From a virus, in the IMG/VR virus record IMGVR_UViG_3300043773_000104, positions 1-21,031 of that record: 21,031 nucleotides of DNA; one strand, written 5' to 3'. Made by a program: the position numbers and the translations under genes. Numbering within the stretch: position 1 is the first letter of the stretch; every line of letters begins with the position of its first letter. Positions 5,869 to 18,142 of the stretch are shown here, in pieces. A model generated the notes under the pieces. It was given only the letters and a program-made list of their open reading frames with translations, did no database searches and was not told the DNA's origin.

Positions 5869-6774
5869 TCAAGTCGTAATCGTCGCCCAATTGGCCGATT
5901 GTGTCGTGCTAATACTGCCCCACCCCGGCGTTTGATTACTGCCAATATTTTGCCAGTTTGCCGTTTGTGCTGTACTAATACTTCCCCATCCCGGCGTTTG
6001 ACTACTGTTGATATTTTGCCAGTTTGCTGTCTCTGAGTCATCAATAAGCTCCCAGAGTTTTCTTCCATCAATAACGTCTGTCCCGGTGGCTGATTCGGTA
6101 ATCGTTGAACCAAACGTAATACCTGAGCTATCAACATCTGTCCCGGTGGCTGACTCTGTAATCGTTGCCAGAAACTTAACCAGCGCACTGTCAAGGTCTG
6201 TCCCTGTTGCCGATTCAGTAATCGCTGGGTTAATACTAAGGTTTGTCCCGACATCGTCCGTACCCGTGGCTGACTCATCCACTGCTGAGGAGTAGGCGTT
6301 CTGTGACATAACATCATCAGTGCCTGTGCCTGTCTCTGCAACTGCTGAATCAAACGTAACCAAAGAGCTAACTGCATCAGAACCTGTCCCGCTTTCTGAT
6401 ACATCACAGGGGTACTGCGGGGTTGCACTGATACTGTCTGTACCTGTGCTTGTTTCTGTGACCAAGGCAAGGAAGTTAACAAACGCTTCCGTACTGTCTG
6501 CGCCTGTGGATGTTTCTGAAATACTTGCTTGGACTTGTACAAGCGATGCAGTGTCATCTGTTCCTGTTGCAGTTTCTGTAACCGTTGCTTGGAACTTTGC
6601 AAGCGCCGAAACATCATCAGTACCTGTCCCGGATTCATCAATGCTTGAAGCAAAATTAATTGCTGCGGCAATAGCATCCGTGCCGGTTGCTGTCTCTGAA
6701 GTAGACCGGTCATAAACCGATTCCCCCCAAGCAGCTTGACCCCATGCGCCGGAACTCCAGCCGCCCTCAGCCAT
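5869..6774 (-). CDS. Repeat-built tail/fibre-associated protein
   Basis: This 301-residue protein has three parts. Residues 1-26 are a Gly/Trp-rich lead (MAEGGWSSGAWGQAAWGES). Residues 27-246 are eleven units of exactly 20 residues, each starting E-[ST]-x-T-G-[TA]-D (one has GSD), with a hydrophobic second half ending in patterns such as FLATIT. Residues 249-301 are five 11-residue units with Trp at position 4 (TANWQNINSSQ, TPGWGSISTAQ, and so on). The last four 20-residue units all begin ESATGTD and are most alike, suggesting recent duplication there. It is coupled to the upstream tail gene by TAATG and is followed by the large fibre gene, so a rod or fibre-linker role is inferred. No catalytic motif is visible. 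Confidence 0.75.
   Translation of the reverse strand: MAEGGWSSGAWGQAAWGESVYDRSTSETATGTDAIAAAINFASSIDESGTGTDDVSALAKFQATVTETATGTDDTASLVQVQASISETSTGADSTEAFVNFLALVTETSTGTDSISATPQYPCDVSESGTGSDAVSSLVTFDSAVAETGTGTDDVMSQNAYSSAVDESATGTDDVGTNLSINPAITESATGTDLDSALVKFLATITESATGTDVDSSGITFGSTITESATGTDVIDGRKLWELIDDSETANWQNINSSQTPGWGSISTAQTANWQNIGSNQTPGWGSISTTQSANWATITT
5872..6030 (-). repeat. 33-base (66-base double) coding repeat at the 3' end of the repeat protein
   Basis: Five 11-residue units, alternating ANW-type and PGW-type, give a DNA period of 33 bases with a higher-order 66-base repeat. Plus-strand segments such as ATATTTTGCCAGTTTGC occur twice 66 bases apart, near 5946 and 6012. Confidence 0.8.
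6037..6696 (-). repeat. Tandem 60-base coding repeat, eleven units
   Basis: The DNA encoding the 20-residue units repeats with a 60-base period. On the plus strand each unit shows variants of a core such as TCTGTCCCGGTGGCTGA. Units near the left end (about 6070-6250) are closest to each other, while those nearer 6696 are more divergent. The period is a multiple of three, so several other frames stay open through the block. Confidence 0.85.
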
Positions 6775-7775: not shown

Positions 7776-8483
7776 TCAAGTTACCGCCTGCCTATACTGC
7801 CCAGACCTGTAAGCATCTTGACGCTCTAAACCATCCGCTAGACGTTTTGCAAGGGCTAAAGCTTCATTATACTTTTGATCAACCATAGCCATTTGTTCTG
7901 CATCGGCTTTAATAAACGTATAGCCCTCACGCAGTGCACCGTACAGCAACACAGAATCAAAATTATCACCAAGCCAAGTTGTGCCCGCAGTTACGATAGA
8001 TTCTGGGTAATAGTAATAATGAAGCTCGACGTTATATATGGCATCAGGCGTAGGACCAAGAATAAAACTTAGCTCATTACTAATGACGCTGCCCGTTACG
8101 GTTGGACCAAAAATAGCATAGTGTCTTGGTCGTCCTGTATTACCCGCACCTGTAGGAACAGGATAAGCTTCACGAATAAAGTTAACGTCTTTATTTAATA
8201 AGTAATGATACCGCCCGTCTGCGTCGATAACAGCAAGACTATAAGACGATAAAAAATCAGAAGGGCACTCAAGATACCGATTATTAGTAGCGGTTACACC
8301 CGTCACATTCTTACGTATCGACGGAAACTGCATGGAGTTATAAATGCGCTGCTCAGCCTGCTTAACAAATGTTGCAAGCTGGTCATCCGAGGTCCACGTT
8401 GTTACTGAATCAGTAAACGTAATGGTAGGAAAATCGTTTTCGACGTACCCTCGGATCGCCTTTTTTAACTCCGTATAATTCAC
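7776..8483 (-). CDS. Neck/connector-type structural protein
   Basis: This 235-residue protein starts with NYTELKKAIRGYVEN and continues with SDDQLATFVKQAEQRIYNSM, a helical opening shared by a family of phage structural proteins often annotated as adaptor or neck proteins. The middle is beta-rich with Tyr-rich strands (AIYNVELHYYYYPESIV). The C-terminal helices (FDSVLLYGALREGYTFIKAD, YNEALALAKRLADGLERQD) resemble those of the 254-residue adaptor at 9264, so the two may be two stacked neck proteins. The start codon is GTG within a GTGA overlap. The gene order (adaptor, small proteins, this gene, then tail proteins) fits a head-tail joining role. Confidence 0.72.
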   Translation of the reverse strand: MNYTELKKAIRGYVENDFPTITFTDSVTTWTSDDQLATFVKQAEQRIYNSMQFPSIRKNVTGVTATNNRYLECPSDFLSSYSLAVIDADGRYHYLLNKDVNFIREAYPVPTGAGNTGRPRHYAIFGPTVTGSVISNELSFILGPTPDAIYNVELHYYYYPESIVTAGTTWLGDNFDSVLLYGALREGYTFIKADAEQMAMVDQKYNEALALAKRLADGLERQDAYRSGQYRQAVT

Positions 8484-8623
8484 GCCATTGGCCCCCTAGC
8501 CATCACGCCTTTAGTTGCACAGCCTGTGCCACGAATCTTAATACCGGAAGTTTTTGGCTTCGCATCCGTAGACTTAGGAGTCGGTGCAGGTTTGGGCTGG
8601 TTAAAAGGTTTGACTTGCTTCAT
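8480..8623 (-). CDS. Small basic protein (47 residues)
   Basis: This gene fills the gap between its neighbours through an ATGA overlap at the start and a GTGA overlap at the end. It encodes 47 residues: a Lys/Pro-rich disordered half (MKQVKPFNQPKPAPTPKSTD) and a C-terminal segment TSGIKIRGTGCATKGVMARG. The latter resembles the RGKTKG cassettes of the genes at 10930-11474 and contains one cysteine. The net charge is about +9. I recall the same C-terminal segment in hypothetical proteins of aquatic phages. Perfect two-sided coupling is the main support for the gene being real. Confidence 0.68.
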   Translation of the reverse strand: MKQVKPFNQPKPAPTPKSTDAKPKTSGIKIRGTGCATKGVMARGPMA

Positions 8624-8826
8624 TTCATCCCACCTCTGTAGGTAAACGAAGATTTCTTCTGGTTGGCAACCTTAGCAAGATTACGCCCCATTTTTAACAT
8701 GTCAGCGTTAGTCTTTCCACCTTTGGCAAGCTTAGTCAGTGGTTGACCTTTGTGCTTAGCCTTCTCGTGCTTATGCACTGCACCAGCAATCATCTTTTTG
8801 TCTTGCTTAAGATCTGCTTTATCCAT
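8620..8826 (-). CDS. Small basic conserved phage protein (HKHEKAKH family)
   Basis: This protein of 68 residues is highly basic (net about +13). It contains LKQDKKMIAGAVHKHEKAKH, then KGQPLTKLAKGGKTNADM, then MGRNLAKVANQKK, and ends with a TYRGGMK tail. I recognise this pattern from small proteins in aquatic phage head-tail regions. Two ATGs stand in tandem. The second (8826) is preferred because the AGGAG ribosome binding site is then 6 bases away, against 3 for the first (8829). The stop overlaps the next start as ATGA. The GGK segment resembles those in the basic cluster at 10155-11474. Confidence 0.72.
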   Translation of the reverse strand: MDKADLKQDKKMIAGAVHKHEKAKHKGQPLTKLAKGGKTNADMLKMGRNLAKVANQKKSSFTYRGGMK

Positions 8827-8835
8827 CATAAACTC

Positions 8836-9264
8836 CTACGAAACAGTTACAGAATTAACTAAACCCTGCGCTACTAAATCGTTTGGGGTTAGCGCAGCAT
8901 CAAACAACCTAGACCCACCCACAGGATTAAATCCCCACTGGATAATCCGACTACCCATTGTAATCGTACCTAGCTCATCTATGCTAGAGTCATCATTCAC
9001 AGGTTCAACCCGCAGCCCATTAAATCCAGCTTGCCGATAAGAGTTTGAATCTACACGGGGATTACGAATTGCCTGTGGGTCATACACAGGATACATACCA
9101 AGCTGTAACTGAGGTTGATCGGGTTCCCAGCACTCAGGGCAGACAAGAATATTGACGTTCTTGGTTTTAATAACGAGTGATTTCAGTTGCTTTAACTTAA
9201 AGCGAAAATTACACCTATCGCACTGTGCAATCGCCCATTTACCTGATGCAAACTGATTGGGCAT
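8836..9264 (-). CDS. Zinc-ribbon structural-operon protein
   Basis: This 142-residue protein has a four-cysteine zinc ribbon at its N-terminus: C15-x-x-C18 in AQCDRCNFRFKL and C42-x-x-C45 in LVCPECWEPDQPQL. A recognisable DPQAIRNPRVD segment follows near residue 62, and the second half is Gly/Asn-rich and beta-like (MGSRIIQWGFNPVGGSRLFD). The ribbon plus DPQAIRNPR arrangement recurs in phage proteins encoded next to neck adaptors, so a structural or assembly role is more likely than transcription control. It shares a TGATG junction with the adaptor gene. The function is not established. Confidence 0.72.
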   Translation of the reverse strand: MPNQFASGKWAIAQCDRCNFRFKLKQLKSLVIKTKNVNILVCPECWEPDQPQLQLGMYPVYDPQAIRNPRVDSNSYRQAGFNGLRVEPVNDDSSIDELGTITMGSRIIQWGFNPVGGSRLFDAALTPNDLVAQGLVNSVTVS

Positions 9265-10028
9265 CAGAAGCTCCCAGTGTTCCCCAAATACATCCGACGA
9301 GGAACAAAACGCACAGCAGCTTTCTCACGATCTTCACCAGCGGCTAAGTTCCACTGTTCCTCATACGACGCTTTAAGCATCTGAATACGTTCTGCACCTT
9401 CAGGAATCTTCATGGCTATATAGTAAGCCAACCCTGCGGTAATACATGGTAAAAACCGAAACGGCATATCAGGAGTCTGGATACCATCACCAGCGTTTTG
9501 TACACGACGCAAACGCCAATAAACAACTTGGTAGTACGGGGAAGCTAACGTACCTTGGTCAGGGACAGGCCAAACTGTGAATTGTGGGTAGGCTGTTGCA
9601 CTTGGAGAGTAATCGCTGGCTGCGGGGTACGTAGCACCGGAATTGCGGCTGATGTAAATTTGTATCGGTCGTGCTTGAGAAAGTTTGTTTGGGATTGTGG
9701 CGTAGGTGGAGACACTAATCCGGGTAAGTGTGAGGTCAGCTTGCGTAGAAACATTACCAGCCCCTGTGCGAATAACGTGCTCAAGCAAATCAATAGTGTC
9801 ATCTGGTAAGTCGTACGTCGCAGTGCCTTGTACCAGATTCTTCGTGCCCTGCTCAATCGTCCACATATTAATGCCACGATTAGCCCACTCTATCGTCAAG
9901 AGGTTCATCGACCGACGAGCCGTACGCAAGTCATAGCCTGAGCGCATCTCGCGCCCAGCCCTTTCAAAGGCTTCTTCAGCTATGTCAGTAAACTCTAAGT
10001 TAAAGTCGGTTGAGCCGCTCGTGGTCAT
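9264..10028 (-). CDS. Head-tail connector/adaptor protein
   Basis: This 254-residue protein is probably the neck adaptor that docks below the portal. The N-terminal third is helical (FTDIAEEAFERAGREMRSGY, RTARRSMNLLTIEWANRG), the arrangement seen in P22 gp4- and T7 gp11-type adaptors. The middle is beta-rich with a repeated Y/T pattern (IQIYISRNSGATYPA, YPQFTVWPVPD). The C-terminal ~60 residues return to helix (LPCITAGLAYYIAMKIPEG, MLKASYEEQWNLAAGEDREK). The length and helix-sheet-helix layout fit short-tailed phage adaptors. The TGATG overlap with the following gene suggests linked translation. The fold-level assignment needs structure comparison. Confidence 0.72.
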   Translation of the reverse strand: MTTSGSTDFNLEFTDIAEEAFERAGREMRSGYDLRTARRSMNLLTIEWANRGINMWTIEQGTKNLVQGTATYDLPDDTIDLLEHVIRTGAGNVSTQADLTLTRISVSTYATIPNKLSQARPIQIYISRNSGATYPAASDYSPSATAYPQFTVWPVPDQGTLASPYYQVVYWRLRRVQNAGDGIQTPDMPFRFLPCITAGLAYYIAMKIPEGAERIQMLKASYEEQWNLAAGEDREKAAVRFVPRRMYLGNTGSF

Positions 10029-10158
10029 GTCTGGCTTCCAATTCCCTTAAATCCATCGCTACATCAGCTACACCGTGCCAATCTTCAAGTGCAACCATAA
10101 CCTGTAAATACTCTTTCAGGATCTCTTTCTGCACCTGCCAACTACTATAGTCTTTCAT
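10000..10158 (-). CDS. Small helical protein (52 residues) upstream of connector
   Basis: This short gene starts in an ATGA overlap with the preceding stop and fills what would otherwise be a 126-base gap. It encodes 52 residues: MKDYSSWQVQKEILKEYLQV, then a helix with ALEDWHGVADVAMDLRELEA, ending in a charged tail. It appears entirely helical and amphipathic. Its 3' end overlaps the start of the connector gene by 29 bases in a different frame. The start-stop coupling on both sides and the clean helical composition support it. The LEDWHGVADVAMDLRELE segment looks like a conserved small phage protein, but I cannot assign a function. Confidence 0.65.
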   Translation of the reverse strand: MKDYSSWQVQKEILKEYLQVMVALEDWHGVADVAMDLRELEARHDHERLNRL

Positions 10159-10400
10159 CTGTATCTTGCAGTCTTGGCGGCAATTTTTGCCGGTTGTTTG
10201 ACAAACTGCTTGCCTGAGCTTTTTCCAGCTCGCTTTGCTCTTGATGTCGCAGCATATTCTGAAGGTGTAAGAGCATTAATTGCCGCCGATGGGAGATACC
10301 GCTCGCCAGTTGCTTTTGGACCCTGTGTGCTAGGTTTGCCACTTTTAGTCCTCCACTTCTGGTCAGTCCAGTTTTTAAGAGACTGTTGCGGGGCTTTCAC
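10155..10400 (-). CDS. Small basic conserved phage protein (KNWTDQKWRTKSGKPS family)
   Basis: This 81-residue protein is built of a conserved block: SLKNWTDQKWRTKSGKPST, GPKATGERYLPSAAINALTP, SEYAATSRAKRAGKSSGKQF, and ending KTARYR. I recognise this pattern from proteins of unknown function in cyanophages, other aquatic phages and algal viruses. I do not give it a family number. The net charge is about +15, with tryptophans at 11 and 16 that could form a small core. It starts with GTG in a GTGA overlap and ends in an ATGA overlap with the next small gene. DNA or RNA binding is plausible from composition but unproven. Confidence 0.75.
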   Translation of the reverse strand: MKAPQQSLKNWTDQKWRTKSGKPSTQGPKATGERYLPSAAINALTPSEYAATSRAKRAGKSSGKQFVKQPAKIAAKTARYR

Positions 10401-10654
10401 TTCATCTTCTTCAACGTCTGCGCCAGCCTTGCACGTTGCCCCATCTTGCCGGGAGCTTTTGCTGCTTTGGCTAACTTACCTGCGGGAATCTTTTCACCAG
10501 CTTTTACGCCTAACGACTTCTTCAAAGCTCCGGGTTTTTTGATAGCGGACTGAATCCACTTACCACTTTTAAACCCTTCAACACCGCGTCCTTTAAGGAC
10601 ATCAGCACGGGTTACTTTGCCATCATCGTTCAGGTCAGGAAATGATTTAGTCAC
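10397..10654 (-). CDS. Small basic protein with EF-hand/dockerin-like loop
   Basis: This 85-residue protein begins with SFPDLNDDGKVTRADVLKGR. Residues D7, N9, D11, T15 and D18 occupy the calcium-coordinating positions of an EF-hand loop, with Asp rather than Glu at position 12 as in dockerins. The remainder is basic and Ala/Gly/Lys-rich (KKPGALKKSLGVKAGEK, then AAKAPGKMGQRARLAQTLKK). The net charge is about +16 despite the acidic loop. The start codon is GTG, overlapping the upstream stop by 8 bases. The stop forms GTGA with the next start. Only a single loop is present, so partner pairing or dimerisation would be needed for a normal EF-hand pair. Confidence 0.72.
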   Translation of the reverse strand: MTKSFPDLNDDGKVTRADVLKGRGVEGFKSGKWIQSAIKKPGALKKSLGVKAGEKIPAGKLAKAAKAPGKMGQRARLAQTLKKMK

Positions 10655-10928
10655 GATAACCCCCGCCTTTTTGCTTGTACTTCATGGCAAGCATTTGTGC
10701 TTTGCGAGCTGACCACTGCCCCGGCGCACCACCTTTACCTCCAGCTTTGATGCTGTTAAATAGTGCCTTACGCATCCCAGGTTTCGTGTAGTTGCCAGCT
10801 TCGTTCACGCGAGAGACTTTGCCACCTTCAGCATACTGATCAAAGTCAGTATCATCCCGCCGAGCTTTACGCTTAGCGGTAGGCATTTTTGAGCGCATGA
10901 TTGCGCCCATCCCGCGAGATGCCATCAT
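10647..10928 (-). CDS. Small basic conserved phage protein (NEAGNYTKPG family)
   Basis: This 93-residue protein has a basic N-terminus, a short acidic stretch (RRDDTDFDQYAEGGKV), and then the strongly conserved block NEAGNYTKPGMRKALF, IKAGGKGGAPGQWSARKAQ, ending in KYKQKGGGYRD. I know this block from many uncultured aquatic phage and some large-virus proteins, always without known function. The net charge is about +14. Two ATG codons in a row (10928 and 10925) could serve as start. The end overlaps the next gene by 8 bases. Conservation of the C-terminal block suggests a folded domain rather than mere low-complexity sequence. Confidence 0.75.
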   Translation of the reverse strand: MMASRGMGAIMRSKMPTAKRKARRDDTDFDQYAEGGKVSRVNEAGNYTKPGMRKALFNSIKAGGKGGAPGQWSARKAQMLAMKYKQKGGGYRD

Positions 10929-10929
10929 G

Positions 10930-11226
10930 TCAGCAAGCCTTACCGCCGTAAGCCATCTTCTTAACCTTACCGCCTTTTTTCATGCCACCGCTACCAGCCA
11001 TTTTGATCTGGGTGCCCTTGGTTTTACCCTTCATAGCAACACCATCACGGCTGGGGGCAGCAGTCTTAACAGCGCCCATCTTAGAAGCGGCTACGCCGCC
11101 GTGCATCATCTTTTTCATCGTAAATTCCTTTCCAACGGATTGAGGGACATCAACTTTCTTTGCGAACTTCGGATTGTTCGCTACTGCTTGCATGAACTTC
11201 TCTTGCTTCGCAGATACAGTGGGCAT
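10930..11226 (-). CDS. Small basic protein with SAKQEKF head and Gly/Lys repeats
   Basis: This 98-residue protein has two parts. Residues 1-36 (opening PTVSAKQEKFMQAVANNPKF, then VPQSVGKEF) form a helical module that I recognise from small proteins of many aquatic phages. The rest is very basic and Gly/Met/Lys-rich, with MHGGVAASKMG, RDGVAMKGKTKG, MKKGGKVKKMAYGG, and a single terminal cysteine. The net charge is about +17. It is TAATG-coupled to the upstream gene and ends one base before the next start. Its cassette matches the one in the upstream gene. A nucleic-acid-binding or internal virion role is possible from charge only. Confidence 0.7.
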   Translation of the reverse strand: MPTVSAKQEKFMQAVANNPKFAKKVDVPQSVGKEFTMKKMMHGGVAASKMGAVKTAAPSRDGVAMKGKTKGTQIKMAGSGGMKKGGKVKKMAYGGKAC

Positions 11227-11474
11227 TACACCATCTTTCCACGGGTTTTGCCACGCATCGCAATACCATCAGCACGTTTAGAAGCTGAACCAACTTTACC
11301 GCCTTTTTTAGCCGTAAACGTATCCGTTTCTTCCATTTCAAACTCAGCCTTTTTTATGGGCTTAGGTTTTGGTTTTGGTGCAGGTTTTTTAGGCTTATTT
11401 AGATTTGGTTCGTACTTAGACGTTTCCATATCTGGGGGGCTAGGTACATTCCTATTAGTTGACATTGTTGTCAT
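11226..11474 (-). CDS. Small basic Lys/Pro-rich protein with RGKTRG motif
   Basis: This 82-residue protein has a disordered, Pro/Lys-rich first half (NKPKKPAPKPKPKPIKK) and a basic C-terminal cassette beginning AKKGGKV and ending RADGIAMRGKTRGKMV. That cassette is the clearest recognisable feature: close variants end many small hypothetical proteins in aquatic phages, and a related version is in the next gene. The start overlaps the upstream stop as ATGA and the stop overlaps the next start as TAATG. The net charge is about +10 by my count. There is no membrane segment. The function is unknown. Confidence 0.68.
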   Translation of the reverse strand: MTTMSTNRNVPSPPDMETSKYEPNLNKPKKPAPKPKPKPIKKAEFEMEETDTFTAKKGGKVGSASKRADGIAMRGKTRGKMV

Positions 11475-11719
11475 CCTTTCTTTGCGAGGGCATCAATTTT
11501 TGCTTCAAGCCTTTCAAAGCCTGTATCAAAGCGTTCCATAATTCTTTCAAGGTCTGCACGAACTTCTGCACGAGTGATGTGGTCACGAGCGATTTCCTCC
11601 CTCGTTCTGTTTAGCAAAATTTGGATACGCTTTTGCTCATCATGCGAGTTTTTAAGCATGAACATTACCAAAGCTACCAAAATAGACGTAATGAGATTCC
11701 AAAGAATGATCGGGTCCAT
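11471..11719 (-). CDS. Single-helix membrane protein with coiled coil
   Basis: This 82-residue protein starts with one hydrophobic helix (about residues 4-22, IILWNLITSILVALVMFML) and continues as a highly charged helix to the end. The second part contains the segment RIQILLNRTREEIARDHIT and a heptad pattern (RADLERIMERFDTGFERLEAK). The basic side after the helix suggests a cytoplasmic coiled coil. Its ATG follows the upstream stop without a gap, and its stop overlaps the next start as ATGA. Similar small proteins with the LLNRTREEIAR segment recur in phage structural regions. It is not in the lysis cassette and its function is unknown. Confidence 0.7.
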   Translation of the reverse strand: MDPIILWNLITSILVALVMFMLKNSHDEQKRIQILLNRTREEIARDHITRAEVRADLERIMERFDTGFERLEAKIDALAKKG

Positions 11720-12166
11720 TTAGCATTTCCATTTTTCCAGATACTTTGCAAGTTGCAAAGCTCTTTCCGAGCTGTCATCAACATTGCCAGCGGCTAGATT
11801 GCACCGGCCACATAGCAAGTCTCGGACTTCTTTACTTTTATGGTTGTGATCTACGCAAGGTTTATCTTTAGAACTTCCTTCAATATTGAAAACTTTTTGG
11901 CAGCAAGCGCATTTGCCTCCTTGAGCTAACAACATTTCAGCAAATTTTGCCGGTGTAATCCCGTACTTAGCTGGTAAGTTATATTTCCGTACATCAGCCC
12001 TCATACAAGGTTTACATGCGTAGTTTAAGCCAGATGTTTGGAATTTGTTTTTATTAAATTGGTCCGACAACTTCCATTCTCGGCATTTACTACACCGATA
12101 CTTACCATCAGCATCTGGTAATTTTGGTACCCGACCCCAATCTCTTTTTGCGGTCAACATCTCCAC
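11720..12166 (-). CDS. Recombination endonuclease VII-like nuclease
   Basis: This 148-residue protein resembles the T4 gp49 endonuclease VII family of junction-resolving, His-Me finger enzymes, which clear branched DNA before packaging. The N-terminal half has a zinc-ribbon-like pair (C25-x-x-C28, C51-x-x-C54). The C-terminal half is the family core: YGITPAKFAEMLLAQGGKC (68-86), C86-x-x-C89, catalytic VDHNH (105-109), then LLCGRCNLAAG with C119-x-x-C122 and N123, followed by a terminal helix. It overlaps the upstream gene by 13 bases and its stop directly abuts the next ATG (TAAATG), so unlike the HNH gene at 13845 it is woven into the operon. A homing origin is possible because the N-terminal ribbon is also seen in mobile nucleases. 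Confidence 0.82.
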   Translation of the reverse strand: MEMLTAKRDWGRVPKLPDADGKYRCSKCREWKLSDQFNKNKFQTSGLNYACKPCMRADVRKYNLPAKYGITPAKFAEMLLAQGGKCACCQKVFNIEGSSKDKPCVDHNHKSKEVRDLLCGRCNLAAGNVDDSSERALQLAKYLEKWKC

Positions 12167-12408
12167 GCCCTTAACGATTTGTTGATACGACTATTCGGGT
12201 CATTGGCTGTTTTAGCTGAAGTTAGCTTCTTTTTCATGCCTTTCATTCGAGCACAAAAAGAATCCCGGCGAGACCCGCCTTCTGGTTGTGGAGGTTTCAA
12301 CCCAGGCTTGCCGGGATTTGCAGCATTGTAGGAAGCACGCCCTTTAGCATTAAGACCGCCCTTTGGGTTTTTGCCTTCCTTCCGCTGCCAAGCAGGAGAC
12401 TTAGCCAC
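12154..12408 (-). CDS. Small basic conserved phage protein (DUF6321-like)
   Basis: This 84-residue protein has a net charge of about +17 by my count. It starts with AKSPAWQRKEGKNPKGGLNA, continues through a Gly/Pro-rich centre (NPGKPGLKPPQPEGGSRRD), and ends with SFCARMKGMKKKL and DPNSRINKSLRAWRC. I associate this pattern with a conserved family of unknown function in marine and giant-virus metagenomes, DUF6321 from memory, not checked. The start codon is GTG, 4 bases after the preceding stop. The end overlaps the endonuclease VII start by 13 bases. It is one of eight small basic proteins in this block. Confidence 0.75.
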   Translation of the reverse strand: MAKSPAWQRKEGKNPKGGLNAKGRASYNAANPGKPGLKPPQPEGGSRRDSFCARMKGMKKKLTSAKTANDPNSRINKSLRAWRC

Positions 12409-13844: not shown

Positions 13845-14450
13845 TTAGCAGGTTGTGGAAGGTGTGTCAACAAGTTTATTTGATTTAAGGAGATTTTCTT
13901 CTTGCGTAATAACGCGCAGGTTCCAAGGTACGTGTAGCCCACAAACTGTTGGGTTGATTAGAGGGACGATGTGGTCAACAACGTAGCGTTCTCCAGTGAT
14001 ACGAGTCAACCTCATTGCTTCTAAGTAAAGTTGACGTATAGATTCCTTCTGTTCTTTGGTTACCCAATCAGGCGTAGCGTTTTTGTGTCTGCGCTTACGT
14101 ACACTGTTGAAAGCTTTATATAAGTCAGGATTTTGTTTTTTGTATTTTTCACGGTGTTTACGCCTATCTTCAACGGGGCGGGCATTAGCCCTAGCAATCA
14201 CCGCTTCTTTATTAGCCTCATAGTACTTACGTTTAGCCTGTTGACCTGCATCAGATTGGTTATAAGCCTTAAAATACTCGGCCCTAGTTGTATTGGCCTT
14301 CTCCCATTCAACTTTTAAACATTCAACACACGCGCCTTTGGTCTTACGGGGGGCAATATGCCCATGCTTGCACGGTTCTCCTGTGAAGTAGTACTTAGCA
14401 CCTTGGTCTTGCGCTTCTTTGCGAGTCTTGGGTAAGTTTGTGGTATCCAT
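13845..14450 (-). CDS. HNH endonuclease, probable free-standing homing-type nuclease
   Basis: This 201-residue protein combines an N-terminal zinc-binding motif (C27-x-H29, C41-x-x-C44), a very basic helical middle (residues 50-125, many Lys/Arg, probably DNA-contacting) and a C-terminal HNH nuclease domain. In the HNH domain, DHIVPL (159-164) supplies the metal and general-base histidine, LHVPWNLRV (172-180) supplies the asparagine, and the closing helix is EENLLKSNK. The start is set at the ATG preceded by AGGAG at 6-9 bases. An in-frame ATG 12 codons upstream would place the start inside the leader and -10 region. The gene lies between a terminator and an inverted repeat, interrupting the structural operon, and looks more AT-rich than its neighbours. 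That placement is typical of mobile HNH genes next to capsid genes. Confidence 0.85.
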   Translation of the reverse strand: MDTTNLPKTRKEAQDQGAKYYFTGEPCKHGHIAPRKTKGACVECLKVEWEKANTTRAEYFKAYNQSDAGQQAKRKYYEANKEAVIARANARPVEDRRKHREKYKKQNPDLYKAFNSVRKRRHKNATPDWVTKEQKESIRQLYLEAMRLTRITGERYVVDHIVPLINPTVCGLHVPWNLRVITQEENLLKSNKLVDTPSTTC

Positions 14451-14477
14451 TTTATCTCCTGTTATACGACACAGGAA

Positions 14478-14483
14478 ATTATA
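14478..14483 (-). promoter_or_regulatory. Candidate promoter -10 box for the HNH gene
   Basis: The minus strand reads TATAAT exactly, between the capsid terminator and the HNH ribosome binding site. A start about 7 bases downstream would give a leader of about 20 bases. The region where a -35 box should lie (about 14500-14507) is part of the terminator stem and tail and has no TTGACA-like match, so this may be a weak promoter or one relying on other contacts. A gene sitting behind a strong terminator would need such a promoter. Confidence 0.45.
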
Positions 14484-14501
14484 CATGAAACCTACAAAAA
14501 G

Positions 14502-14547: not shown

Positions 14548-15456
14548 TTAAGCGCCTGGAGATCCAAAGATTCCAAGAGGATCAGACACACCAAAGGAGT
14601 AACGCTCACGAGCTTTGTAACGAACGTTTCCGGTGTCGAAGTCCCCGTCCATGCTGTTTTGCATGGGGGTGCGAACAAAGTGCTTCAGACCGTTAGGCAC
14701 ATCTGTAGTCAGGAACCATGCGTTGGTATCGGTCAAATAGTGATTAACCGTGAAACCTTCGGGGATGGAACCCATCATCTTCAATGCGTTAACGTCGTTG
14801 TCAGCCGTTGCCACACGAAGCTCGGTTTGCAGCAAGCGGGTTGCCGTAAACATGAGGCTTGGAGGAACAACCAACTTACGAGGTTTAGCAGCGATCAACA
14901 GCCCACGTTCGTCAGTCCACGCAGCGATTTGAATAACGGCGTTCTCAAGAGAAGTCTCATTCAAATCAGAGTTAGTACCGGGACGATTGCTGTTAACACC
15001 ACCAGAAACCAAGGGATGCGAAGTAGAAAACAGGGGCTGACCGTCACCATAAGTAACAGCGGAAGAAAACCCGTTGTTCAGAACCGCAGCACCTTTAACT
15101 TCTTTGGTGTAGTACATCGCACGAGCAAGTGCCTTGGTATAACGAGCAGACAGGCTGTCGTACAAGTTATCCTCAATCGCTTCTTCAGTGATCGAGAACC
15201 CAAGTGCAATGGTTTCGTGTGTGTAACGTGCGGTCCAAGCTTCCTGTCCGTTGTCATAAGCAATGGCGCTGCCTTCGTTTTTAACTGGGGCGGCACTAAA
15301 GCCTGACAGCTTGGTTTCTTCCTCGAACGAACGCTCGGAACTCTCGGTTTCGTAGATTTCCTTGTGCTCTTCGCCGTATTTTGCATACTCCAGACCAAAC
15401 AATGCGTTAAGTCCGGGGAGTAACTCTTTCAGTAGTTGTGCGCGTGAAATAGCCAT
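14548..15456 (-). CDS. Major capsid protein (Mu gpT-like, HK97 fold)
   Basis: This 302-residue protein is the likely shell subunit. It resembles the Mu gpT family of HK97-fold capsid proteins: an N-terminal helical segment (SRAQLLKELLPGLNALFGLEY), an extended loop region (residues 40-75), then HETIALGFSITEEAIEDNLYD (80-100), a long helix, GAAVLNNGF (122-130), and the diagnostic DGQPLFSTSHPL around 138-149, followed by the P-domain sheet. It has a very good ribosome binding site (AAGGAAGGGAG) 6 bases before the ATG, in line with high expression. A strong terminator lies 25 bases after its stop, so the head block ends here. Confidence 0.88.
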   Translation of the reverse strand: MAISRAQLLKELLPGLNALFGLEYAKYGEEHKEIYETESSERSFEEETKLSGFSAAPVKNEGSAIAYDNGQEAWTARYTHETIALGFSITEEAIEDNLYDSLSARYTKALARAMYYTKEVKGAAVLNNGFSSAVTYGDGQPLFSTSHPLVSGGVNSNRPGTNSDLNETSLENAVIQIAAWTDERGLLIAAKPRKLVVPPSLMFTATRLLQTELRVATADNDVNALKMMGSIPEGFTVNHYLTDTNAWFLTTDVPNGLKHFVRTPMQNSMDGDFDTGNVRYKARERYSFGVSDPLGIFGSPGA

Positions 15457-17568: not shown

Positions 17569-17946
17569 TCACGCACGTTGGATGCCACGGGGGTCTTCGA
17601 CCACCGCTTCAACGGAATCATCGTTAATAATCCGAAACTCTCGATCATGAATCTTGATGCGAGTGCCTGTGTTTGCACGAGTAATAATGAAATCTCCCGG
17701 TTTACACCACGGTCCAGTTGGAAAACGGTTTGGGTCGTTATATGCCATATCACCCAGTGCTACAACAAAAAGCACGTTACTTAGCAGCTCTTCAAACTTA
17801 ACTGTACTGTCAGCTTTAACAATCCCACTATCAAACTTATTCTCAATATTGGGCAAAGTGCAAAGGATCTTATACCCCTTCACAATTGGTAATTGCTTAG
17901 CCTTCTGTTGAACGTCATCGATCACAGCTTGAGCTGCTTCATTCAT
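17569..17946 (-). CDS. GroES-like (Cpn10) co-chaperonin
   Basis: This 125-residue protein resembles the Cpn10/GroES fold and would cap a host GroEL-type chaperonin during folding of phage proteins such as the capsid subunit. After an N-terminal helical extension of ~19 residues comes the beta-barrel start (KGYKILCTLP, 23-32). A flexible segment follows with GIVK at residues 41-44, matching the GGIVL mobile-loop tripeptide by which GroES contacts GroEL. Then come VVALGDMAYN (61-70), the CKPGDFII turn (81-88), and the closing INDDSVEAVV strand (108-116). The first ATG that clears most of the upstream gene is at 17946. The frame stays open further up to 18063, but those starts would read through the preceding gene. 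Phage co-chaperonins such as T4 gp31 assist capsid folding; that this one does so is inferred from its place between portal and scaffold. Confidence 0.75.
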   Translation of the reverse strand: MNEAAQAVIDDVQQKAKQLPIVKGYKILCTLPNIENKFDSGIVKADSTVKFEELLSNVLFVVALGDMAYNDPNRFPTGPWCKPGDFIITRANTGTRIKIHDREFRIINDDSVEAVVEDPRGIQRA

Positions 17947-18142
17947 TTTCAAATTCCTCATATCGTTGCACAAGGTCTTGGACTTCCATCCTTGCACGGC
18001 GCAGACCTTGGATGACGCCGCACAAATACTTATATTCAGCAAAATCTTTACAGCTAGCATCACTCATTGCTGCTGCGGTTTCTTTCTCTCGCTCGGCCAA
18101 TTTGTTAAATAAATGATCAAGCATCATCCGTTCATGCGCCAT
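17939..18142 (-). CDS. Small helical protein between portal and co-chaperonin
   Basis: This 67-residue protein appears wholly alpha-helical and charged, with heptad-like spacing in its second half (GLRRARMEVQDLVQRYEEFE) that suggests a short coiled coil. It has no signal peptide or membrane segment. Its ATG overlaps the portal stop by one base (TAATG), and its 3' end overlaps the co-chaperonin start by 8 bases, so it is translationally embedded in the head operon. I do not recognise a named family. Small helical proteins in this position occur in related aquatic phages, and a role in head assembly is inferred from position only. Confidence 0.7.
   Translation of the reverse strand: MAHERMMLDHLFNKLAEREKETAAAMSDASCKDFAEYKYLCGVIQGLRRARMEVQDLVQRYEEFENE

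Follow-up and report, generated by a model that had tools for sequence, protein, structure and literature searches.

Why does a phage carry eight tiny, strongly basic proteins among its capsid and tail genes? The question is raised by a 21-kb virus record, IMG/VR IMGVR_UViG_3300043773_000104, the 21,031 nucleotides of which are referred to here as the window and which, by capsid and adaptor sequence, is a fragment of a Pam1-like podovirus (see below). A first-pass annotation had listed eight small open reading frames (orfs); all are found, on the minus strand, and we refer to their products in coordinate order as P1 to P8. The most informative feature of the set is absent from that annotation: P6 and P7 share a C-terminal peptide, the class I tag, and P1 has a related-looking second one, the class II tag.

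Eight basic genes in three runs

From 8480-8623 to 12154-12408 the eight proteins have 47, 69, 81, 85, 93, 98, 82 and 84 residues and net charges of +9, +13, +15, +16, +14, +17, +10 and +17, in agreement with the claimed range of +9 to +17 and amounting together to +111; the gene given as 8620-8826 becomes 8620-8829 when the stop is counted and the first ATG taken. They had been described as linked by overlaps, which is correct within runs, but there are three of these and not a single uninterrupted cluster. P8 (12154-12408) stands alone, P7-P6-P5-P4-P3 (10155-11474) are joined by junctions of −8 to +1 nt, and P2-P1 (8480-8829) overlap by 4 nt. Non-basic genes separate the runs: an endonuclease VII-like gene and an 82-aa membrane/coiled-coil gene between P8 and P7-P3, and the adaptor (9264-10028) and a gene that we call X1 (8836-9264) between P7-P3 and P2-P1. 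All three runs lie between the major capsid and tail genes, as the placement among head and tail genes had implied.

Of the 14 window orfs that encode no more than 110 aa, 8 have strongly basic products; in a 49-kb stretch of T4 taken as a control, the figure is 1 of 26 small genes. In the genomes of four relatives 20 of 36 small orfs (56%) are basic within the block from the major capsid protein (MCP) to a second gene, X2, versus 41 of 193 (21%) outside it (Fisher p=6e-5); the enrichment is therefore beyond chance. The eight do not form a single common family, a possibility that is excluded since the class I tag is common to P6 and P7 only, and profile comparison places P3, P5, P8, P2 and P4 in separate families.

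Two conserved C-terminal tags

The bodies of P6 and P7 are unrelated; their common part is the C-terminus, and each protein retrieves the other in searches. The class I consensus is GGxVxSASxRADG[ICV]Ax[RK]GKT[RK]G[KR]MV-stop, at or near the protein end. In P7 it reads KKGGKVGSASKRADGIAMRGKTRGKMV followed by the stop (11229-11309, from a tag profile of 492 orfs and a pattern scan), and in P6 the tag core SRDGVAMKGKTKG (11014-11052) is followed by a further GGK-rich C-terminus, a layout that is repeated in relatives. In total there are 492 distinct tagged orfs in 229 loci, with 1–6 copies per locus. BLAST groups their bodies into ~158 clusters, 122 of them with a single member, although low-complexity sequence influences this grouping: the P6 N-terminal domain and repeats are what joins one cluster of 185. 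The bodies are mostly charge-rich, with a net charge of zero or below in 16% and a disordered composition in 85% (a composition-based estimate, driven by charge).

Bodies turn over quickly while the tag stays constant. Between loci whose adaptors are 90–99% identical, a partner homologue is present for 48% of the tagged bodies, versus ~90% for P3, P5 and P8. The tag residues D, G, G, K and T are 99–100% conserved, a figure for which the search pattern itself accounts in part. Synonymous divergence of the tags is 0.56 within a genome and 0.57 between genomes, and is thus saturated, which shows that the peptide itself is under selection; the equality of the two values also excludes the tags being recent duplicates. 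The class I tag is found behind a DUF6321 body and a P4 body as well, and so is a movable part.

A 35-base degenerate pattern for the tag, which does not require any position, gave 100 matches in a viral collection outside the loci already assembled, and 100 of 100 are C-terminal; a control scan of bacterial genomes gave 33 matches, of which two are true C-terminal tags and the remainder chance. Among 22 genome records, all 46 tag matches lie in one cluster per genome, and the reversed pattern has none. The two true tags of the bacterial scan are on contigs from metagenome-assembled genomes (L276 and L283; Chitinophagales and Gammaproteobacteria), which are probably phage contigs binned with their hosts. 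A tblastn search for the class I tag in isolate phages gave no match, but this null is not proof of absence, because a diverged copy in phage Pag-Yong1 escaped such searches and surfaced only through its neighbourhood: UMO75986.1 (308 aa), encoded between capsid and adaptor, ends in DGCAKRGRTKGRFI.

The class II tag has the consensus RGxGAATKGx6-stop, the motif being followed by about six final residues; in P1 it is KTSGIKIRGTGCATKGVMARGPMA and the stop (8483-8554, pattern scan). The pattern is C-terminal in 91 of 97 matches, 78 of 82 tags are in the same phage group, and there is one per genome. In the literature searched, we found no account of DUF6321, of the class I tag or of the class II tag.

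Gene order across relatives

Relatives were collected using P3 and P6 as queries, genes were called, with starts assigned mechanically, and family profiles were built from the window proteins. The co-occurrence of these families near head genes, for which the first-pass annotation had proposed a survey, is borne out: the order MCP – P8 – tagged genes – P5 – P3 – adaptor – X1 – P2 – P1 – X2 is kept in 47 of the 48 loci that span capsid to X2. Within these 48, P8 is present in 39, P5 in 35, P3 in 34, P2 in 40, P1 in 43, and P4, the rarest, in 17; these frequencies are overestimates, because P3 or P6 served to select the loci, but the order is unaffected by that choice. The description of the proteins as conserved unknowns requires a qualification, in that all eight families recur in other contigs but three (P1, P6 and P7) belong to fast-changing tagged sets. 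The cluster is thus composed of two layers, the stable small basic families P3, P5 and P8, and the tagged sets P6, P7 and P1.

Related proteins in the virions of T4-like cyanophages

With P8 as the tblastn query, DUF6321 is found in 535 phage records, mostly T4-like cyanophages. Published mass spectrometry of cesium chloride-purified virions of the T4-like cyanophage S-CREM2 detected gp137 by 4 unique peptides and gp160 by 7 (PMC10665884 Table 3). We find gp137 to be a DUF6321 protein (Pfam 3.5e-10), and gp160 to have a P3-like domain, linked to window P3 by two profile steps (probabilities 80% and 90%) through HTVC023P-type proteins; a direct hhalign comparison of window P3 with the cyanophage P3 gives 0.4% and no support. 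The N-terminal stretch of gp160 resembles the N-arm of that phage's own capsid protein. In S-P4, a 529-aa 'structural protein' has P3-like, P5-like and then DUF6321 modules in one chain.

A second line comes from leader sequences. The stand-alone DUF6321 protein of S-CREM1, SCREM1_179, starts MKTYNDFITEV, compared with MKTYQEFIAEA of T4 ipII/ipIII, the capsid targeting sequence (CTS). A CTS-like leader, MKxFxxFLxE, starts the packaged S-adenosylmethionine hydrolase gp6, kinase gp14 and cytidylyltransferase gp154 of S-CREM2, and therefore behaves like a targeting sequence there; it may, on these sequences, predict capsid cargo in T4-like cyanophages. S-CREM2 gp13 and gp136 likewise start with it. 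None of the eight window proteins (0/8) has an N-terminal leader of the MKTYQEFIAE type; only the T4-like relatives do.

The DUF6321 and T4-GC119/gp114 proteins of T4-like cyanophages resemble the window set in that P8 is also DUF6321 and the S-P4 chain unites P3-like, P5-like and DUF6321 modules; they differ in that window P8 is a stand-alone 84-aa gene without a CTS leader, some of its homologues (for example in L275) bearing the class I tag instead. The earlier suggestion of virion proteins or proteins delivered with the genome accordingly gains indirect backing from the S-CREM2 virions and the S-CREM1 leader, the evidence coming from other phages.

A proposal for packaged cargo

We judge the chances to be even that the cluster encodes late proteins that enter the virion, most likely inside the head, the tagged ones doing so by a C-terminal loading signal. 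P3, P5 and P8 would be constant packaged basic modules, and P1, P6 and P7 interchangeable cargo, with variable bodies on a constant C-terminal peptide. The class I tag of P6 and P7, or the class II tag of P1, would be recognised by some part of the head-assembly machinery, which could be the scaffold, the inner face of the capsid or the portal vertex, and this recognition would bring the variable bodies into the particle during assembly, the loaded cargo then being injected along with the DNA.

The model for this is T4, in which the internal proteins (IPs) IPI, IPII and IPIII are several small positively charged proteins per genome that are diverse across relatives, and in which a foreign protein can be brought into the head by means of the CTS (PMC3012670, PMC9958956). 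The tagged set follows the same logic at the other protein end, which is why we propose that the tags load cargo into the head: in both systems diverse small bodies have only a short peptide in common—here ~158 body clusters and one tag—and a targeting role for that peptide would be a further likeness. A more ambitious version is that both tags are capsid-loading signals new to phages, defining a large fast-changing class of packaged and injected proteins, possibly anti-defence effectors, in widespread aquatic Pam1-like podoviruses, and constituting an independently evolved analogue of the T4 IP/CTS system; this we put forward tentatively, rating it somewhat below an even chance.

Several observations weigh against packaging by way of the tags. 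The T4 CTS is N-terminal and cleaved by a protease, whereas the window tag, which occurs in podoviruses, lies at the C-terminus and has an unrelated sequence, and no separate prohead protease was recognised among the scanned window proteins, although weak families could escape. Sequence coverage of gp137 in the S-CREM2 data is 4.1% (PMC10665884), so the DUF6321 part itself may have escaped detection, and homology of P5 with the P5-like cyanophage virion domain is unsupported (hhalign 2.6%). We found no proteomics for the window phage or any Pam1-like relative, and 65 diverse class I tagged proteins gave no convincing Pfam domain and no match to a known effector.

Were the tag a loading signal, virion cargo could be predicted from sequence alone for any tagged protein, hundreds of uncharacterised proteins of uncultured aquatic phages would gain a place and a testable role as injected effectors, possibly in anti-defence, and a short peptide handle would be available for loading proteins into podovirus heads. 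The T4 solution of variable cargo with a constant address would then have a second, independent form. Pag-Yong1, whose host is Planktothrix agardhii FACHB-1261, is a cultured relative in which the tag could be examined; besides UMO75986.1 it encodes an adjacent basic protein of 83 aa and a DUF6321 protein. Whatever the tag does, DUF6321 and its neighbours are candidate virion proteins in many marine phages, in which they are now 'hypothetical'.

Alternative explanations

The proteins could instead be late intracellular factors that bind nucleic acid or take over the host and never enter the virion, the tag serving for localisation, RNA/DNA binding or stability. This is the alternative that survives best, and we regard it as unlikely but worth keeping in mind: the basic Gly-rich tails resemble nucleic-acid-binding tails, endonuclease and membrane genes are nearby, and direct virion evidence was not found in this phage group, but three observations are against it: the cluster always sits among the capsid, adaptor and neck genes in a fixed position, the same genomes have no tags elsewhere, and cyanophage virions contain a DUF6321 protein (PMC10665884).

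The first-pass annotation had raised a DNA-condensing, protamine-like role, in which the basic proteins would neutralise and compact the head DNA. The high density of charge and the location of the genes beside those of the head fit such a role. We nonetheless consider it improbable and leave it unsupported: to neutralise 90% of the charge of a ~62-kb genome, every one of the eight proteins would have to be present at ~1,000 copies, and the reported number for each T4 internal protein is much lower, ~360 (PMC9958956). Moreover, the conserved feature goes beyond composition, being a specific peptide with invariant DG and GKT, for which a main role in charge neutralisation gives no explanation, and 16% of the tagged bodies are neutral or acidic.

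A constant anchor with variable bodies is also the logic of capsid decoration, and the cluster genes come after genes of cement-like proteins, so that the tags could hold the bodies to the outside of the capsid or neck, where they might, for instance, bind hosts or surfaces. We think the prospects of this explanation similarly poor, because most of the bodies are rich in charge and disordered by composition, searches of them gave no Ig, lectin or fibre domain, and the T4-type leaders on a DUF6321 relative point inward. Finally, the position of the tags at gene ends could serve body swapping by a conserved DNA or RNA element (a recombination site, terminator or translational coupler), a reading to which we give next to no weight and which is contradicted by the saturation of synonymous sites (0.56) in tags whose residues D, G, G, K and T show ~100% conservation.

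Individual proteins

P8 (12154-12408; 84 aa, +17) matches DUF6321 (PF19846; Pfam 3.5e-20) over its full length and passes the curated cut-off with 72.8 bits against 28.5; the family is present in 109 loci. Its predicted structure is of low confidence (predicted template modelling score, pTM, 0.37), and the fold is therefore not interpreted. P7 (11226-11474; 82 aa, +10) has a body of its own. P6 (10930-11226; 98 aa, +17) has an N-terminal domain of ~43 aa (MPTVSAKQEKFMQAVANNPKFAKK..., 11098-11226) that matches PHROG 16759 (2.7e-15) and the 'virion structural protein' families 25121 and 22033 (8.5e-5 and 3.6e-4), and these 43 residues recur in jumbo phages, in phiKZ PHIKZ165.1 and in a 52-aa Eowyn protein annotated 'structural protein'.

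P5 (10647-10928; 93 aa, +14) belongs to the GGxPGQWSARKAQMLAxxYK family (phrog_17747, 1.9e-31), found in 113 loci and 17 phage records, and P3 (10155-10400; 81 aa, +15) to the SLKxWTxQKWRTKSGKPS family (phrog_14910, 1.5e-33), found in 114 loci. The AlphaFold2 model of P3 is better (predicted local distance difference test 88, pTM 0.70) and has no fold match in the PDB; sequence and fold searches of the PDB likewise gave no match. Window P3 and P5 have no profile match to DUF5872 (PF19197), but the two halves of that family weakly match the P5-like protein of DSL-LC04 (1e-3) and the P3-like protein of HTVC023P (1.8e-3), below the curated cut-off, and both of these proteins occupy the same gene neighbourhood.

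P4 (10397-10654; 85 aa, +16; 43 loci) has an EF-hand-like loop, DLNDDGKVTRAD (10601-10636), that is present in 21 of 43 family members and in 0 of 2310 shuffled small proteins; a neighbouring gene in HTVC023P encodes a similar loop with weak EF-hand Pfam matches. P2 (8620-8829; 69 aa, +13) is found in 92 loci, and P1 (8480-8623; 47 aa, +9) in 99.

Phage identity and neighbouring genes

The assignment to Pam1-like podoviruses is based on the major capsid protein (14548-15456, minus strand; PF25209, 2.5e-15), which shares 74% identity with its counterpart in Planktothrix phage Pag-Yong1, and on the head-tail adaptor (9264-10028, minus strand), which is Pam1-adaptor-like and 44% identical to a DSL-LC04 protein annotated 'Pam1 adaptor protein'. 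The longer records of relatives are mostly 59–65 kb. The Pam1-like cyanopodoviruses Pag-Yong1, DSL-LC04 and HTVC023P have capsid, adaptor, X1 and X2 homologues in the same order as the window; they differ in that other isolates have similar small basic genes in which the exact class I tag was not found.

A GroES-like co-chaperonin gene with a weak Cpn10 match lies between the portal and capsid genes (17569-18063), and in isolate relatives a gene at the same position is annotated GroES. Two Endonuclease VII/HNH-like genes amid the late genes (11720-12166 and 13845-14486) vary in presence among relatives and are probable homing endonucleases. The 82-aa membrane plus coiled-coil protein (11471-11719) has a conserved place in Pam1-like phages, including DSL-LC04 and CRP-902. 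A 301-aa protein of charge −36 (5869-6774) consists of short repeats of TETATGTDDxASLVxFQ... followed by repeats of TANWQNIxSSQTPGWGSI. In DSL-LC04 (L310), an open P3-like gene at 10536-10779 has no annotation in the GenBank record.

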